From assembly GCA_021737145.1 (NCBI GenBank), contig JAIPEN010000001.1:186001-250000 (forward strand): 64,000 nucleotides of DNA, written 5' to 3'. Source of the DNA: Desulfarculaceae bacterium (GTDB taxonomy: Bacteria; Desulfobacterota; Desulfarculia; Desulfarculales; Desulfarculaceae). Each line of letters starts with the position of its first letter. The first letter of the stretch is position 1. The notes under the pieces were generated by a model, which ran no database searches, was not told the DNA's origin, and worked only from the letters and a program-made list of their open reading frames with translations. Of this stretch, positions 28,591 through 53,817 are shown one piece after another. The position numbers and the translations under genes are program-made.

Positions 28591-29879
28591 GCGCCCCACG
28601 CCCCATATTGCTCAGAAACGGCCGGCTGATCTGCCCGGCCAGCGGCCTGGACAAAAAAGGCGACCTCCTGCTGGCCAAGGGCCGCGTCGAGGCAATCGGC
28701 GGCAAGATCGCCCCGCCCAACAACGCCAAGGTCATCGACTGCGCGGGCAAGGTGGTGGCCCCCGGGTTCATCGACCTGCACGTGCACCTGCGGGAGCCGG
28801 GCCAGGAGTACAAGGAGACCATCGCCACGGGCACGGCCTCTGCCGCGGCCGGTGGCTTCACCGCGGTGTGCTGCATGCCCAACACCGAGCCGGTCAACGA
28901 CAGCGCGGCGGTGACCGAACAGATTTTGGAGCGGGCGGCCAAGGATGGCAGCGCGAGGGTATATCCGGTGGGGGCCATCACCCCGGGCCTGGGAGGCCAG
29001 GCCCTCACTCAGATGGCCGAGCTGCAACAGGCCGGCTGCGTGGGAGTGACCGACGACGGCCACCCGGTGAGCGACAGCCGCCTGTTGCGCCGGGCCATGG
29101 AATATGCCTCGGGCTTTGATTTGCCGGTGGTGTGCCACAGCGAGGAGCTGGCTCTGTCTGCCGGCGGGGCCATGCACGAAGGCCCCACCTCCACCCGCCT
29201 GGGCCTGCCCGGCATCCCGGCCCAGGCCGAGGTCATCGCCGTGGAGAGGGACCTGGCCCTGGCCGGGCTCACCGGCGCGCGGGTGCACATCTGCCACATC
29301 TCCTGCGCGGGCAGCGTCGAGGCCCTCAAGCGGGCCAAGGAGGCTGGCTGGGCGGTGAGCGGCGAAACCGCGCCCCACTACCTGGCCCTGTGCGACCAGG
29401 ACGTGGGCGAGTACGACACCCACCGTAAGATGAACCCACCCCTGCGCTCGGCCGCCGACCGCGAGGCGGTGCGGCGCGGCCTGGCTGATGGCGTAATCGA
29501 CGCGGTGGCCACGGACCACGCCCCCCACTCGGTGCTGGAAAAAGAGCTGGAGTTCGGCTTGGCCGCCTTTGGCGTAACCGGCCTGGAGACCGCCCTGGGC
29601 ATCCTCCTGGAGCTGGTCGACGAAGGCCTGATCACCCTGCCCCAAATGATCGAGCGCCTCACCGCCTCCCCGGCGCGCATCCTGAGCCTGCCCGGCGGCA
29701 GCCTGGCCAAGGGAGGCCCGGCCGACGTATGCGTGTTCGACCCGGCCGCGCCCTGGGTGGTGGAGCCGGGCAAGATGCGCTCCATGTCCAAGAACACCCC
29801 CTTTGCCGGCCGCGAACTGCCCGGCCGCGCCGTTGTGACCATTTGCGGCGGCAAAATGACCCACCAAGCCAAGGAGTAG
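28587..29879 (+). CDS. pyrC: Dihydroorotase
   Basis: 430 residues, type I dihydroorotase. Zinc ligands: [15 protein letters not shown] (about 57-71), DDGHPVSD (about 156-163) and CHICHIS plus ATDHAPHS (about 306-313, catalytic Asp). The full active site is present, so this is an enzyme and not the inactive PyrX partner. It cyclises carbamoyl aspartate. The start overlaps the pyrB stop by four bases (ATGA), giving translational coupling. Confidence 0.95.
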
Positions 29880-29880
29880 C

Positions 29881-30294
29881 ATGAGCGCCTATCGTAAGCT
29901 GGTCAGCTCCGAGGCCATCGCCCTATTGGCCGCCCTTTGCATCGCGGCCATCTTCGTGGGCTCCTATTATCAGCGCCGCATGGACAACCAGGACGAGCAG
30001 GCCCTCAAGGTGGCCCAACAAATCTACCAATTGCTGAGCAAGGCCCCGGCCGCCCAGCCGGCCCCGGAACCGGCAACCACCGGCGCTGCCCAGACCAGCC
30101 CGGTGACCCCCGACGCAGGCCCCGCCCAGATAAGCCTGCTCAAGCTCAAGGCCATGGGCCTCGGCGATCCCTCGCCGATCCAGGTAATTGTGCAGGACCC
30201 CAGCCCCACGGCCTGGAAAGTGGCGGTGGAGCATCCCCTGGGAATTAAGCGCTATGTGGTCACCCCCCAGGGGGTCAAGGAAGAGGTGCGCTGA
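29881..30294 (+). CDS. Membrane-anchored protein of unknown function
   Basis: 137 residues. An N-terminal membrane helix (ALLAALCIAAIFVGSYY, about 14-30) is followed by a coiled-coil-like stretch (DNQDEQALKVAQQIYQLLSKAP), a Pro/Ala-rich linker and a small C-terminal domain of about 50 residues (KAMGLGDPSPIQVIVQDPSPTAWKVAVEHP). It begins 1 base after the pyrC stop, so it is in the pyr transcript. No family recognised. Confidence 0.7.
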   Translation: MSAYRKLVSSEAIALLAALCIAAIFVGSYYQRRMDNQDEQALKVAQQIYQLLSKAPAAQPAPEPATTGAAQTSPVTPDAGPAQISLLKLKAMGLGDPSPIQVIVQDPSPTAWKVAVEHPLGIKRYVVTPQGVKEEVR

Positions 30295-30313
30295 TTCCCT
30301 CAGCCTGAGCACC

Positions 30314-31063
30314 ATGCCCAAGCGCCAATCCCAAAAAGAAGACAACCTGGTGCGCATGTTGCGCTACGTCCTGGGTGTGGCCCCGGCCGAGTTCGGCCTT
30401 TATCCCCTGGAGGACGGCTGGATTCCAGTCAAGGAGCTCTTGGCCGCCCTGCACCAGGAGGAGGGCTGGCGCCATCTGCGGGCCGGCATGATCGCCGACG
30501 CGGCCTCCCGCCTGGCCCCGGATCTGGTGGAGCTGGATGAAAAGCTGGTGCGGGTGAGCGAGCGCGGCCATCCCCTGCCTGACTACGAAGCCATGCCCCC
30601 GGCTCACCTTTACCTGGGCGCGCGGCGCAAAGCCTGGCCCGTGCTGCACCGCCGGGGCCTGGAGGCCGGGCACGACGGACGGCCCTGGCTCCTGGCCGCC
30701 AGCCGGGAGGCGGCCCTAAAACTGGGACAGCGCCGCGACGCCGAGCCGGTGCTGGTCACCGTCCAGGCCCACCAGGCCCAGGACCAGGGGGCCGTGTTCC
30801 CGGCCTGGGGCGAGTACTTCCTGTGCGAGTGGGCCCCGGCCAGCGCGCTCATGGGCCCGCCCATCGCCGAGCAGACCTTTCCCAAGAAAAAACCCCAGCC
30901 CAAGGCCAAGCCTCCCGAGGGCCCGGCCATGCCCTCGCCCGATTCCCCGACCGGCTCCTTCACGCTAATGCCCGAAGACGTGGAAAAACCCTACAAGCGC
31001 AAGGGCATCAAAAAGGACATCGCCTGGAAGCGGGAGCGCCGCAAGCAGCGCCGGAGCAAATAG
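30314..31063 (+). CDS. KptA/Tpt1-like RNA 2'-phosphotransferase homologue with altered active site
   Basis: 249 residues from MPKRQSQKED. N-terminal helical domain (MLRYVLGVAPAEFGLYPLEDGWIPVKELLAAL) aligns with the KptA winged-helix start 'LSxxLRHxPxxxGLxLDxxGWVxVxELL'. The second domain aligns with the ADP-ribosyltransferase-like half. However, the RH pair is GV (21-22), HGT becomes LGA (101-103), and the R..VHL strand reads RPWLLA (123-128). True KptA removes the 2'-phosphate of spliced tRNA using NAD. Loss of these residues argues for a non-enzymatic or changed role. A Lys-rich tail follows. Fold call is moderate. Confidence 0.65.
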   Translation: MPKRQSQKEDNLVRMLRYVLGVAPAEFGLYPLEDGWIPVKELLAALHQEEGWRHLRAGMIADAASRLAPDLVELDEKLVRVSERGHPLPDYEAMPPAHLYLGARRKAWPVLHRRGLEAGHDGRPWLLAASREAALKLGQRRDAEPVLVTVQAHQAQDQGAVFPAWGEYFLCEWAPASALMGPPIAEQTFPKKKPQPKAKPPEGPAMPSPDSPTGSFTLMPEDVEKPYKRKGIKKDIAWKRERRKQRRSK

Positions 31064-31227
31064 CCTTATACCCATCGGATTTACCCCGCACCGTCACAAT
31101 TTAGGGCCCTTCTTTCTTCTCAGTAATATTTCCTAGACATCGCCGGGCATTGCCTTTAGCATTTTCAATAGAACCGCGCGTCAAGCATGGCTTTGGCCGA
31201 TAGTTGACCCTCAGGTGGAGAGACACG

Positions 31228-31947
31228 ATGCCCAAAGAGCAGAAGGCCGGGTGCGCCCGGCCCACCGGGGGAGTGGTGGGACAAACGCCCCCTCCCCAGG
31301 ATGAAAACAAAAAAACTCCTGCCCCGGAGGTGCGCAAGATGATCCAGGTTGGAACCAAAGCTCCCGATTTTACAGCCCCTTGTTATTTTCAAGGCAAGTT
31401 CGCCTCGGTGCAGCTAAGCGAATATTTGGGCAAATGGGTGGTGTTGTGTTTCTATCCCGGTGACTTCACCTTCGTTTGAGCCACCGAGATCTCGGCGGTC
31501 GCCGAGAAGTATCCGGAGTTCCAGAAGCTTGGCGTGGAGGTGCTCTCCATGAGCGTGGACTCCATGTTCGTGCACAAGATGTGGGTGGACCACGAGCTGT
31601 CCAAGATGGTCGACGGCGGGGTGCCCTTCCCCATGCTCAGCGACGGTGGCGGCAAGGTGGGCGAGGTCTACGGGGTCTACGACCCGGCCGGCGGCGTGGA
31701 CGTGCGCGGCCGCTTCATCATAGACCCGGACGGCGTGGTGCAGGCCATGGAGATGCTCACCCCTCCGGTGGGGCGCAATGTGGCCGAAACCCTGCGTCAG
31801 ATCGCGGCCTTCCAACTGGTGCGCGAGAGCAAGGGCTCCCGGGCCACGCCCAGCGGCTGGCGGCCGGGCAAAAAGGTGCTCACCCCGGGCGAGGACCTGG
31901 TGGGCAACGTGTGGCAGGAGTGGAAGGTGGAGGACGCTTTCAACTAG
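31228..31947 (+). CDS. Selenocysteine-containing peroxiredoxin (PrxU-type, AhpC/TSA fold)
   Basis: 239 residues with one in-frame TGA at 31477-31479 (residue 84). Before it: [34 protein letters not shown]; after it: [38 protein letters not shown]. In peroxiredoxins the residue at that place is the peroxidatic cysteine of FTFVCxTE, so TGA is read as selenocysteine. A SECIS hairpin starts 10 bases later. The usual resolving-cysteine site CPAxW reads TPSGW, so this is a one-Sec enzyme that needs an external thiol. A Pro-rich 37-residue leader precedes the fold; ATG 31228 has GGTGGAG 6 bases before it. Function: peroxide removal. Confidence 0.9.
31490..31507 (+). promoter_or_regulatory. SECIS element for selenocysteine insertion
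   Basis: TCTCGGC-GGTC-GCCGAGA: a perfect 7-bp stem with a GGTC apical loop, 10 bases after the UGA at 31477-31479. GGUC in the loop and about 11 bases spacing are the SelB recognition features of E. coli fdhF. Confidence 0.85.
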
Positions 31948-32037: not shown

Positions 32038-32065
32038 TTACAGATAGGCAATGGAGGCCCCACCC

Positions 32066-34387
32066 ATGATCAGAACCGCCCGTTTTATAGTCCTTTTTCT
32101 TGCGTTTCTTTTCCTGTTGGCTGCCCCTTCACCGGGCCTGGCCAAGGTGCGCGAGTATCACCTGACCATCGCCAAGGGCAAGGTCAACCTCACCGGAACC
32201 CCGGCCGAGGCCATGACCGTCAACAACGGCATTCCCGGCCCCACCCTGCGTTTCATCGAAGGCGACACCGCCCGCATCCAGGTTACCAACCAGATGGACG
32301 TGGACACCTCGGTGCACTGGCACGGCCTGCTGGTGCCCCCGGGCATGGACGGGGTGCCGGATATCAGCTTCCCCCCTATCGCTCCGAAAACCACCTTCAC
32401 CTACGAGTTCCCCATTCGCCAGAGCGGAACCTATTGGTATCACTCCCACACCCGCTTGCAGGAGCAAAGCGGGGTCTACGGCTCCATTGTCATCGAGCCA
32501 AAGGATTACCAGTCACCGGCCGACCGGGAGCTGGTCCTGGTGCTCTCGGACTGGACCGACGACCGCCCCGGTTACGTGATGCAGGCCCTCAAGCGGGGCA
32601 GCGAATTCTTCTCGGTGCAAAAGGGCTCGGCCCAGAGCATCGCGGGGGCCATCAAGCTGGGCCATTTGGGCGACTACACCATGCGCGAGCTGGTGCGCAT
32701 GCCGCCCATGGACATATCGGACGTGGCGTATGACCGCTTTTTGATCAACGGCAAGCCCATGCAAAAGCTGGCCGCCCGGCCGGGCGAAAGCTTTCGGCTG
32801 CGGGTGATCAACGGGTCGGCCTCGTCGTTCTTTTACCTGGAGTTCGCGGGCGGCCCCCTGACCATTTTCTCGGCCGATGGTCAGGACGTTGAGCCGATAA
32901 AGGTCAAGCGCCTGCTCATGGGCGTGGCCGAGACCTATGACCTGCTTATCAAGCTGCCGGGCAAGGGCTCATACGAATTGCGGGCCACGGCCCAGGATGG
33001 CTCGTCCTGGGCCGCCCTATGGCTGGGCTCGGGCCATCCCCACCCCGCGCCCGCCATCCCCCGGCCTGACCTGTATCTGCTGCACGGCACACCGTCCCTG
33101 GGGCGCATCCTGGCCCTGACCCCGGCCGGCTCCATGGGCATGCCCGACAGCGCGGTGGAGGCGGGCAAGTTCGACAAGCCCGGCATGGCGGGCATGGGCG
33201 GCATGAAAATGGGCCATAACGCCATGAAGGGCATGGACATGGCAAAGGCGCAACATGGGGAAATGAAGATGCCCTCTTCGGAACAGGGTCACGCCCCAAA
33301 GATGGCCCCCATGGCCAAGGCCCCGGCCGCCCCGCCCAGCGGCAAGCGCTGGGCCCACGACTTCGCGCCCCTGGCCAGCGACGTGGCCGCCTCGCCCGCC
33401 CTGGCCCGGGACGGCGGCCCGGAGCGCCCCTGGCCTCCTTATGCCAAGCTCAAGGCCAAGCACTCCACCGCCCTGAGCAAGAAGCGGCCGGTGCGCAACA
33501 TCCGCCTTACCCTTGACGGGGACATGAGGCGCTACGTGTGGCTTTTGAACAACAAGCCCCTGTCCGAAAGCGACAACATCCGCATCAAAAAGGGCGAGGC
33601 GGTGCGCTTCATCATGATCAACCGCACCATGATGCACCACCCCATGCATTTGCACGGGCACTTCTTCCGGGTTATCAACGGCCAGGGAGACTACTCGCCC
33701 CTCAAGCACACCGTGGACGTGGCCCCCATGAGCACCACGGTGATCGAGTTCGCGGCCGATGAAAAAGGCGACTGGTTCTTCCACTGCCACCTGCTCTATC
33801 ACATGAAAGCGGGCATGGCCCGGCTGGTGCACTACCAGGGCTTCGTTCCTCCGGCAGCGGTGCGGGCGGTGCGTCCCCGGCTGTACCAGGAGCCCTGGTA
33901 CCCCATGGTGGATGCCAGCCTGCTGAGCAACATGAGCGAGGGCGCGGCCAAGCTGGCCTCCACCCGCAACGTCATCGGGGTGGAGTGGGAGATCGGCTGG
34001 CAGCGGCGCACCAAGGCCGCCTGGGAGGTGATGCCCACCTGGGCCTATCATGTGAACCGCTTCTTTTCGGCATTCGCGGGCGGCCACCTGGAAGGCGAGG
34101 CCGGCGTGCTGGACAAGACCCGGGGCATCCTGGGCATCAACTATCTCCTGCCCTACAACCTGCATTCCATGTTATGGGTGGACACGGACCTGGGCGGGCG
34201 CGTCAAGCTGGCCCGCGCCTGGGACCTGACTCCCCGTCTGGCCCTTTTTGGTTCCTGGCAGTACGACACCCACGACTTCTGGGAGGCCGAGGCCGGGCTT
34301 AGCTACATGATCAACAGCCACCTGTCCCTGGTGGGGCAGTGGCACTCGGAATACGGCTGGGGCGCGGGATTGGGCTTCAGCTTTTAG
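32066..34387 (+). CDS. Multicopper oxidase (CopA/CueO-like) with CopB-like outer-membrane barrel tail
   Basis: 773 residues. Signal peptide (FIVLFLAFLFLLAAPSPGLA) then three cupredoxin parts with all four copper motifs: HWHGLLVPPGMDG (about 83), HSHTR (about 126), HPMHLHGHFF (about 525) and HCHLLYHMKAGM (about 573). A Met/His-rich insert (about 355-420, MAGMGGMKMGHNAMKGMDM) is typical of copper-resistance oxidases. The last ~170 residues (WEIGWQRRTKAAWEVMPTW..GLGFSF) are a beta-barrel-like segment resembling CopB, ending in Phe. The enzyme oxidises Cu(I) or other metals in the periplasm; a fused barrel would tether it to the outer membrane. ATG 32066 follows GGAGG by 8 bases. Confidence 0.88.
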   Translation: MIRTARFIVLFLAFLFLLAAPSPGLAKVREYHLTIAKGKVNLTGTPAEAMTVNNGIPGPTLRFIEGDTARIQVTNQMDVDTSVHWHGLLVPPGMDGVPDISFPPIAPKTTFTYEFPIRQSGTYWYHSHTRLQEQSGVYGSIVIEPKDYQSPADRELVLVLSDWTDDRPGYVMQALKRGSEFFSVQKGSAQSIAGAIKLGHLGDYTMRELVRMPPMDISDVAYDRFLINGKPMQKLAARPGESFRLRVINGSASSFFYLEFAGGPLTIFSADGQDVEPIKVKRLLMGVAETYDLLIKLPGKGSYELRATAQDGSSWAALWLGSGHPHPAPAIPRPDLYLLHGTPSLGRILALTPAGSMGMPDSAVEAGKFDKPGMAGMGGMKMGHNAMKGMDMAKAQHGEMKMPSSEQGHAPKMAPMAKAPAAPPSGKRWAHDFAPLASDVAASPALARDGGPERPWPPYAKLKAKHSTALSKKRPVRNIRLTLDGDMRRYVWLLNNKPLSESDNIRIKKGEAVRFIMINRTMMHHPMHLHGHFFRVINGQGDYSPLKHTVDVAPMSTTVIEFAADEKGDWFFHCHLLYHMKAGMARLVHYQGFVPPAAVRAVRPRLYQEPWYPMVDASLLSNMSEGAAKLASTRNVIGVEWEIGWQRRTKAAWEVMPTWAYHVNRFFSAFAGGHLEGEAGVLDKTRGILGINYLLPYNLHSMLWVDTDLGGRVKLARAWDLTPRLALFGSWQYDTHDFWEAEAGLSYMINSHLSLVGQWHSEYGWGAGLGFSF

Positions 34388-51828: not shown

Positions 51829-53817
51829 GTGGACCCCCAGCTTCTGGAAATATTCGCCGAGGAGGCCAGGGAAATAATCGACGCCCTGGAGGAGGGCTTG
51901 TTGTCCCTGGAGGACCGGCCCGACCCGGAGACCATCAACACCGTGTTCCGGGCCGCGCACACCATGAAGGGCAACGCGGGCATCGTGGGCTTTGACGACG
52001 TGATGGAGCTGACCCACCTCATGGAGGGGGTGCTGGACCAGATGCGCCAAGGCGCCCGCGAGCCCAAAGGCCCGGTCATGGGCCTGCTGCTCAGGGCCAC
52101 GGACCAGCTCAAGGGCATGGTGGAGGCGCGCCTGGCCGGAGGGCCGGCCGCGCCCCCAGACGAGCTGCTGCGGGAGTTGGCCCCCCTGGTGGCCCCGGAG
52201 GAAAGCCAGGCCCCGGCCCAGGAACCGCCCGCCTCGCCGGCCCCTGGCCAGGCATCCCCGGCCGCCCCGCCCCAGCGGCGGCGGGTGCACCTGAAGATCA
52301 GGCTGCCCGGCGACCTGTTCACCACGGGCACCGATCCATTGCAGCTTCTTTTGGAGCTGGAGGAGCTGGGCGAGTTGGAGCGGGTGGTGTGTCATATGGA
52401 GGACCTGCCGCCCTTCAGCCGCTTGGACCCCTTTAACCTGCATTTGTGGTGGGAACTCTGGCTGCTCACCAGCCACCCCCTGAGCACCCTGGACAACGTG
52501 TTCATCTTTGTGCGCGACGAGGCCGAGATAAGCATGAGCGAGGGAGCCCCGCCTCCCCCGGCCGCCACGGTTTCACCAAGCCCGCTCGCCCGGCGGGAGC
52601 CCGCCCCCCCGGCGCGCGGCTCCCTCCCGAAACGCCCGCCCCGCCCCCTGGCCACACCCGCGCCCACCATCCGGGTGGACACCGACAAGCTGGTCAACCT
52701 GGTGGGCGAAATGGTCATCGGCCTGGCCCGGGTGAGCGAGAGCATCGGCGAAAACACGGACCCGGACCTGCAAAGCGCCATGGAGTCCATGGGCCAGATA
52801 AGCCGGGAAATGCAGCAGCAGGTGATGCGGGTGCGCATGGTGCCGGTGGAAGGCACCTTCAACCGCTTCCGGCGCATGGTGCGCGACCTGGCCGCCGAGC
52901 TGGGCAAGGACATCCGCCTGGAACTGAGCGGCCTCAAGACCGAGCTGGACAAGAACGTGGCCGAGCAGATGGCCGACCCCCTCAAGCACCTGGTGCGCAA
53001 CGCGGCGGGCCACGGCCTGGAGACCCCGGCGGAGCGCCGCGCTGCGAACAAGCCGGCCGAAGGCACCATCTGGCTTCGGGCCTTTCAGCAGGAGGGGCGT
53101 ATCTTCCTGGAGGTGACCGACGACGGCCGGGGCATCGACAGCCGGCAGGTGCGGGCCAAGGCCGAGGCCCTGGGCCTGCTGCCTCCGGACGCCCACCTTA
53201 GTCAGGAGGAGACCTACCAGCTTCTGTTTCACCCCGGCTTCACCACCGTGCGGGAGGTGACCGAGCTTTCGGGCCGGGGGGTGGGGCTGGACGTGGTGCG
53301 CGAGAACATCGAGTCTCTGCGCGGCTCGGTGGAGGTGGAGTCCGTGCCCGGCCAGGGAACCACCTTTCGCCTGCGCCTGCCCCTGACCCTGGCCATCATC
53401 GACGGCATGAACGTAAAGGTGGCGGGCGAGGTGTTCGTGTTGCCCATGTTGGCCATCGTGGAGTCCCTCCGGCCAACCCCCGGCCAACTCAAGACCGTGG
53501 AGGGCAAGGGCGAGCTCATCAAGCTTAGGGAGAACTATTTGCCCCTGGTTCGCCTGTCCCGCTTGTTCGGCCTCGAGGGCGGGGTGGAAGACCCGGCCGA
53601 GGGCCTGGTGATGATCATCGGCAGCCTGGGCAAGAGCTTCGGCCTGCTGGTGGACGACATCCTGGGCGAGCAGCAGGCGGTGATCAAGTCCCTGGAACAG
53701 AACTACCGGAAGGTGCCCGGCATCAGCGGGGCCACCATCCTGGGCGACGGCCGGGTGGGCCTGATCCTGGACATCCCGGGCCTGGAAAAGATGGCCCTGG
53801 CCGCGGGAGGGCGCTGA
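51829..53817 (+). CDS. cheA: Chemotaxis histidine kinase CheA
   Basis: 662 residues. P1 HPt with the phospho-His in FRAAHTMKGNAG (about 41-52), a P2-like middle region (about 145-230), dimerisation segment DTDKLVNLVGEMVIGLARVSE, ATPase (P4) with HLVRNAAGHGLET (N box), VTDDGRGID (G1) and GRGVGLDVV (G2), and a CheW-like P5 at the end. The N box reads NAAGHG where most CheA have NxxDHG, a notable substitution. GTG start at 51829. Kinase for CheY and CheB of this operon. Confidence 0.94.
   Translation: MDPQLLEIFAEEAREIIDALEEGLLSLEDRPDPETINTVFRAAHTMKGNAGIVGFDDVMELTHLMEGVLDQMRQGAREPKGPVMGLLLRATDQLKGMVEARLAGGPAAPPDELLRELAPLVAPEESQAPAQEPPASPAPGQASPAAPPQRRRVHLKIRLPGDLFTTGTDPLQLLLELEELGELERVVCHMEDLPPFSRLDPFNLHLWWELWLLTSHPLSTLDNVFIFVRDEAEISMSEGAPPPPAATVSPSPLARREPAPPARGSLPKRPPRPLATPAPTIRVDTDKLVNLVGEMVIGLARVSESIGENTDPDLQSAMESMGQISREMQQQVMRVRMVPVEGTFNRFRRMVRDLAAELGKDIRLELSGLKTELDKNVAEQMADPLKHLVRNAAGHGLETPAERRAANKPAEGTIWLRAFQQEGRIFLEVTDDGRGIDSRQVRAKAEALGLLPPDAHLSQEETYQLLFHPGFTTVREVTELSGRGVGLDVVRENIESLRGSVEVESVPGQGTTFRLRLPLTLAIIDGMNVKVAGEVFVLPMLAIVESLRPTPGQLKTVEGKGELIKLRENYLPLVRLSRLFGLEGGVEDPAEGLVMIIGSLGKSFGLLVDDILGEQQAVIKSLEQNYRKVPGISGATILGDGRVGLILDIPGLEKMALAAGGR

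Follow-up and report, generated by a model that had tools for sequence, protein, structure and literature searches.

The gene at positions 31228 to 31947 of the window analysed here (64,000 nt of Desulfarculaceae bacterium GCA_021737145.1, contig JAIPEN010000001.1; all coordinates are positions in this window) is a selenocysteine peroxiredoxin of the PrxU type. The family is already known, and the selenocysteine part of the finding is not new. Beyond what the first-pass annotation had described, comparison with relatives points to two conserved translation starts and to a leader cysteine that may be the missing resolving residue. On sequence evidence, it is probable that the UGA is decoded as Sec and that two in-frame starts are used in the same gene. 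That this widespread selenoprotein gene yields two isoforms, and that the mobile N-terminal Cys arm of the long one has replaced the C-terminal resolving Cys, is put forward as a tentative proposal.

The long form of prxU is encoded on the plus strand, comprises 239 residues including Sec84 and ends at a TAG stop codon. The frame is open from 31228 to 31947 except for a single TGA at codon 84 (31477..31479), found in FTFV-TGA-ATE. With the TGA read through, the protein matches the NCBIfam PrxU model NF040737 over residues 7-235 (1.8e-123, 410.8 bits for a cut-off of 270) and the Pfam AhpC-TSA model over residues 41-173 (3.8e-39). Both matches span the TGA, which bears out the earlier claim that it occupies the peroxidatic position with good peroxiredoxin sequence on either side. 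The peroxiredoxin motif PxxxT/SxxC(U) is present as PxxxTxxU, with P77, T81 and U84. A structure model built from 33 family sequences (mean pLDDT 79, pTM 0.80) has the AhpC/Prx1-class fold, its best structural matches being Prx1/AhpC proteins. Typical 2-Cys enzymes of this class, such as Salmonella AhpC and human PRDX2, share the fold (1n8j, TM 0.89; 7kiz, TM 0.85, by target length) and rely on Cys both as peroxidatic and as C-terminal resolving residue. In contrast, the window PrxU carries Sec, the place of the usual resolving-Cys motif is taken by TPSGW (31846..31860), as had been correctly read from the translation, and no Cys is found beyond residue 84.

The selenocysteine peroxiredoxin (PrxU) of Eubacterium acidaminophilum was reportedly described by Sohling in 2001. 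The E. acidaminophilum protein is about 203 residues long and has no leader. Like the window protein, members of family NF040737 have Sec at the peroxidatic site within PxxxTxxU and the AhpC/Prx1 fold, and leadered as well as leaderless members pass the model. Sec peroxiredoxins are listed in the available excerpts of reviews and surveys (PMC13188914, PMC9312934, PMC1794560), and PrxU is up-regulated in ore-grown Sulfobacillus according to excerpts of a proteome study (PMC7409299). In Desulfococcus multivorans, dmul_C20060/70 is a Sec peroxiredoxin with a UGA upstream of a SECIS, entered under two locus numbers (PMC5109826, in excerpt); this fits the expectation that an ordinary gene caller would split or shorten such a gene. 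The same excerpts discuss neither its mechanism nor a leader nor a second start (PMC5109826). No description of a leader Cys or of a double start in PrxU was found in the literature searched, which included few subscription papers, and the excerpts of the Sec peroxiredoxin literature do not state how the cycle is completed in forms that lack a C-terminal resolving Cys.

The genome encodes the machinery required for Sec insertion. Matches were obtained for SelA (610.8 bits), SelB (402 bits) and SelD (374.8 bits), and ARAGORN detected one tRNA-Sec with anticodon TCA. The selD gene of this genome (L017) itself has one in-frame TGA and likely encodes a selenoprotein too. Relatives were collected by scanning GTDB species genomes with peptide patterns that excluded the Sec site, which gave 94 relatives; the window and the best 80 of these 94 constitute the 81 close sequences referred to below. 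TGA is present at the site in all 81, one of them (L099, motif FTYV) having been read by eye. The nearest named relative among those kept is a Desulfarculaceae MAG (L021, 84%), and the relatives include sulfate reducers, Syntrophaceae, Spirochaetes, Acidobacteria, Fibrobacter, Calditrichaeota, Cloacimonadota, Chloroflexi, Syntrophomonas and Dethiobacter. For a search at the level of phyla 395 genomes were drawn, of which 149 had a match at 1e-40, and 60 lower-ranking stretches were added by hand choice. Among the close genes, at least 31 of 81 use TGA both as internal Sec codon and as their own stop (L025, L026 and L029, for instance), and one locus (L170) holds a tandem pair of Sec peroxiredoxin genes with TGA in both.

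A bacterial SECIS hairpin is located at 31490..31507 (+), where the first-pass annotation had placed it. Ten bases separate the TGA from its 7-bp stem (31490-31496/31501-31507), which closes a GGTC loop (31497-31500). The single-sequence fold is only mildly unusual compared with shuffled sequences (z -0.9 to -2.1), and the hairpin rests on covariation among relatives rather than on this fold. The three wobble-wobble pairs, 14-29, 17-26 and 20-23, are Watson-Crick in 138, 150 and 149 of 152 distinct TGA homologs, respectively, with 2-4 pair types each; the two that belong to the stem occur as G-C, A-T, T-A and C-G. They rank 1-3 of 690 for excess pairing (0.56, 0.53 and 0.48), the fourth value being 0.16. 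Of the 152, 79 have AGTT as their loop and 70 have GGTC, so that the loop ends covary too. These covariation sets omit 10 homologs that did not match the site pattern and that were kept in the leader and start set. When near-copies are included, 125 of 163 TGA forms have all seven stem pairs and 32 have six of seven. By comparison, 11 homologs with a Cys codon keep 2 to 6 of 7 pairs, and none has a GGTC or AGTT loop. The description of the gene as a Sec peroxiredoxin with a bacterial SECIS is upheld by the machinery, the conserved TGA and the covarying hairpin; close relatives carry TGA with the hairpin, not Cys without it. The TGA conservation (81/81) and the SECIS covariation also rule out a pseudogene with a chance stop, a reading in favour of which nothing was found and to which we give practically no weight. 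When the whole window was crudely scanned for a TGA followed by a hairpin, with open frames on both sides, two matches emerged, prxU and a site at 52575 (-). The latter is regarded as an artefact, antisense to a long ORF that we take to be CheA-like, and its antisense reading has no Pfam match. An Rfam search of the 64-kb window gave no match at gathering scores.

Two genomes of the same genus as the window, G004 and G007, each contain one leadered copy with TGC at the Sec site, as well as another, TGA copy. These TGC copies (L111:4917-5636; L112 bases 1-701, - strand) are situated at, or close to, the locus of the window gene. In G007, collinearity with the window extends from 29170 to 31926, the contig ending just beyond the gene, and the G004 copy has the same neighbours in a changed order. 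Their hairpins have decayed to 5 and 4 of 7 pairs, with the loop lost. In a careful 17-row tree the window gene falls into a single clade with the G008 copy and both TGC copies (100/99). Placement of these TGC copies with the other Sec copies of the genus, an alternative named after seeing the data, was rejected (p-AU 0.014). Since all other leadered rows of the larger tree have TGA, the direction of change is read as Sec to Cys. We read this as an apparent in-place Sec-to-Cys change in sister species, accompanied by hairpin decay. In its available excerpts, a 2006 survey lists no Sec-to-Cys event for peroxiredoxin (PMC1794560). Such a TGA/TGC swap at the same locus, with hairpin decay, is an experiment provided by nature on the reasons for retaining Sec.

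Among 122 loci no conserved operon partner of prxU was found. The commonest neighbour family occurs near 16 of them, and 11 of the 17 ORFs that make it up lie upstream in the same orientation; one member (L062:1295-3034) is a FAD/pyridine-nucleotide disulfide reductase with a rhodanese domain. This type of reductase is found upstream of prxU in several lineages and is a possible reductant partner. Another neighbour family, near 9 loci, is presumably Fur/PerR-like. In the window, a multicopper oxidase gene lies downstream (32051-34387), and its homolog stays near prxU in L102 and L111. Just upstream, 30188-31063 has a weak match to RNA 2'-phosphotransferase (KptA/Tpt1; 28.6 bits for a cut-off of 26). 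An alignment-based scan of viral contigs for a phage origin gave 11 pattern matches and no relative.

The peroxiredoxin fold is preceded by a leader of 37 codons (31228..31338). The leader had been described as Pro-rich; it is real, and with 7 Pro in the window the description fits there, residues 20-32 in relatives being mainly Glu, Lys, Gln, Pro, Ala and Thr. Near its tip is Cys9 (31252..31254), a candidate resolving or other redox cysteine, which is Cys in 80 of 80 close sequences covering the site. This count is free of start-choice bias. It agrees with that of 131 leadered homologs, in which Cys9 is found 131 times (codon TGT 69 times, TGC 62 times), a set that leans towards this result as its starts were chosen with a preference for ATG, for an SD-like stretch and for a Cys thereafter. 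A second residue, Cys74 (31447..31449, in VVLCFYP), is shared by 80 of the 81 close sequences; 69 of the 81 have exactly two Cys besides Sec. In pairs 78-97% identical from the 131 leadered homologs, codons 8-18 show 6553 synonymous versus 449 non-synonymous differences, residues 19-32 show 1455 versus 10377, and core residues 60-110 show 22541 versus 5195. The pattern at codons 8-18 indicates a translated, constrained leader tip that sits on a loose tether. In the structure model Cys9 falls in a region with pLDDT under 50.

By motif, C-terminal Cys candidates occur in 32 of 36 leaderless homologs and a CP motif in 6 of 136 leadered ones, five of the latter set (L088, L093, L100, L119 and L178) having been labelled by hand and L093, which runs off its contig, having an assumed leader. 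Six leadered proteins combine the leader Cys with the CP motif, and one more (L079) has TPACW. On this distribution, Cys9 is the strongest candidate for a resolving residue that has been relocated, a role we hold to be just short of an even prospect given the few changes on the tree. On a tree of 94 rows (94 of 172 proteins after thinning) the leader requires two changes, which we read as one gain and one loss. A correlation between leader and missing C-terminal Cys has no power on this tree, which offers 2 independent pairs, and with only two leader changes the linkage of Cys9 to the missing C-terminal Cys cannot be shown. Cys74 could be the resolver instead of Cys9. Four leaderless Sec homologs (L149, L150, L176 and L177) have no Cys at all, their altered stretch ending in Sec being FYGGDYTFVU; three of the four genomes also hold a leadered PrxU, and the two that are present in the 94-row tree fall inside the leadered clade. 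Nine other leaderless homologs (L147, L148, L153, L154, L157, L162, L165, L168 and L182) have TPAGW or TPVGW together with two further Cys in the C-terminal part (xAC..V and VCxxW), where a resolving residue may have a third location.

Where the leader ends, an internal ribosome-binding site and a start codon are conserved, which the first-pass annotation overlooked. The first start, M1, is preceded by GGAG (31217..31220), with an anti-SD duplex energy of -6.4. The internal site, GGAGGTG (31326..31332), reaches -10.8 in the window and is thus stronger; it precedes the ATG of codon 38 (31339..31341), a putative second start giving a 202-residue form. In 129 of 131 leadered homologs the duplex at M38 averages -11.1 kcal/mol, as compared with -3.7 at other internal Mets, 10% of which reach -8. 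Means taken without selection by SD strength are -10.81 for M38 (75 of 81 close sequences), -11.22 for M1 (77 of 81, start set by tblastn extent) and -11.16 for the nearest ATG of 36 leaderless homologs. These three are free of start-choice bias and agree with the biased set, in which the M1 and leaderless means come from chosen starts and lean towards a strong SD, its 41 "leaderless" starts including 5 later labelled leadered.

Comparison with synonymous shuffles separates M38 from other internal Mets. Its duplex energy is -11.26 versus -6.14 for the shuffles and is lower in 126 of 128 genes, while other internal Mets have -2.84 versus -2.97 and are lower in 170 of 379. The 128 genes are those of the 131 examined that remain after setting aside 2 without Met and 1 without anchor; where two Mets stood near (19 of 128), the one with the better SD was taken, and likewise in the codon count below. 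Gene by gene, 32 of 128 M38 sites and 11 of 379 other Mets pass p<0.05 against the synonymous null, the few passes at M38 being explained by the amino acids there, which already favour GGAG. By alignment column, residue 38 is below the null in 101 of 103 sequences with a gap of 5.3 kcal/mol. Of columns 108, 113, 118, 127, 136 and 236, only 113 leans the same way (31 of 40 below the null; -1.60 versus -0.75, a gap of 0.85), with no energy near -8. M108 of the window has an SD-like site nearly as strong as that of M38 (-10.6), yet across the family this column is below the null in only 39 of 107. Moreover, of the K/E codons at -5/-4 within the M38 SD, 192 end in G and 8 in A, versus 280:616 elsewhere in the leader. 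In a thinned set of 27 sequences less than 75% identical, 26 of them with Met at codon 38, the ratios are 31:0 and 50:118. Of 130 anchored genes, 128 retain a Met near the core, and the two others have GTG and ATT. The M38 SD is held by synonymous selection, and both a second SD and its start codon are kept. Two starts are strongly indicated by these comparisons, one for a 239-residue form with the Cys arm and the other for a 202-residue form like the leaderless relatives.

Two further readings of the internal site have been considered. If M38 were the only true start, the leader would be an untranslated 5′ region. The stronger SD of M38 in the window and the beginning of leaderless homologs at that very point agree with this, but it is hardly tenable: the substitution pattern of codons 8-18 rules out an untranslated leader, Cys9 is kept in 80/80, and the M1 SD averages -11.22 in 77 close sequences. 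Conversely, the internal SD might start no protein, being either a relic of an old start or a pause site before the UGA. Leaderless homologs do start there with an SD mean of -11.16, which makes the site look inherited. However, at the divergence covered here a relic should lose its wobble bases, whereas the G-ending K/E codons stand at 31:0 in the thinned set, and a pause site needs no start codon, whereas Met is kept in 128/130 with GTG in one of the other two. We regard this reading as improbable. The simplest history would be that the old start and its SD were retained when an upstream start added the leader. One gene giving two products through an internal in-frame start is also the case for Cas11 from cas8/cas10 (PMC11899642, in excerpt). 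Cas11 is a different, small subunit, whereas the short form of PrxU would be the whole enzyme minus its arm.

The following mechanism is proposed. On comparative evidence, the UGA at 31477 is read as Sec by SelB and tRNA-Sec with the help of the hairpin 10 bases downstream. The mRNA would be translated from two in-frame starts, M1 giving the 239-residue form with a flexible Cys9 arm and M38 a 202-residue form with the same extent as the leaderless relatives. Sec84 would attack the peroxide, and the resulting selenenic acid would be resolved by Cys9 of a long-form arm, from the same or the partner subunit, in replacement of the C-terminal resolving Cys. A thioredoxin-like partner might then reduce the Se-S bond. 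How many active sites are provided with an arm would depend on the ratio of the two starts.

Resolution by Cys9 has to be weighed against two other roles for this residue. The first-pass annotation had proposed a 1-Sec peroxiredoxin in need of an external thiol. Such an enzyme would have no resolving residue of its own, the thiol would reduce the selenenic acid directly, and Cys9 and Cys74 would serve other purposes. A C-terminus without CP motif and the existence of the Cys-free Sec homologs described above fit such an enzyme. However, Cys9 is invariant and occupies the tip of a leader that evolves rapidly at residues 19-32. With this invariant Cys, a tip evolving as coding sequence and an almost invariant Cys74, the need for an external thiol is unproven and not supported as it was stated; we consider a 1-Sec enzyme unlikely, though it deserves to be kept in mind. 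Alternatively, Cys9 might form interchain disulfides between leaders and have no catalytic role, as does Cys51 in the N-terminal extension of human peroxiredoxin 4. In the available excerpts on that enzyme, Cys51-Cys51 bonds join the N-terminal regions of neighbouring dimers, and mutation of Cys51 altered neither decamers nor catalytic parameters (PMC3824332). By analogy, a leader Cys can be non-catalytic (PMC3824332). However, peroxiredoxin 4 combines its peroxidatic Cys with a resolving Cys at the C-terminus (PMC3824332), whereas 130 of 136 leadered PrxU proteins are without the CP motif, and there is no sign that the two extensions are related. A purely interchain role is thus rather doubtful in our opinion.

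The invariant leader Cys offers a concrete, testable answer to how the cycle is completed without a C-terminal resolving Cys. If the conserved second start is real, what is purified or annotated as PrxU may consist of two isoforms together, and annotators picking one start would miss the other. If both the two isoforms and the arm hold true, PrxU would form mixed oligomers with a tunable share of self-resolving active sites.
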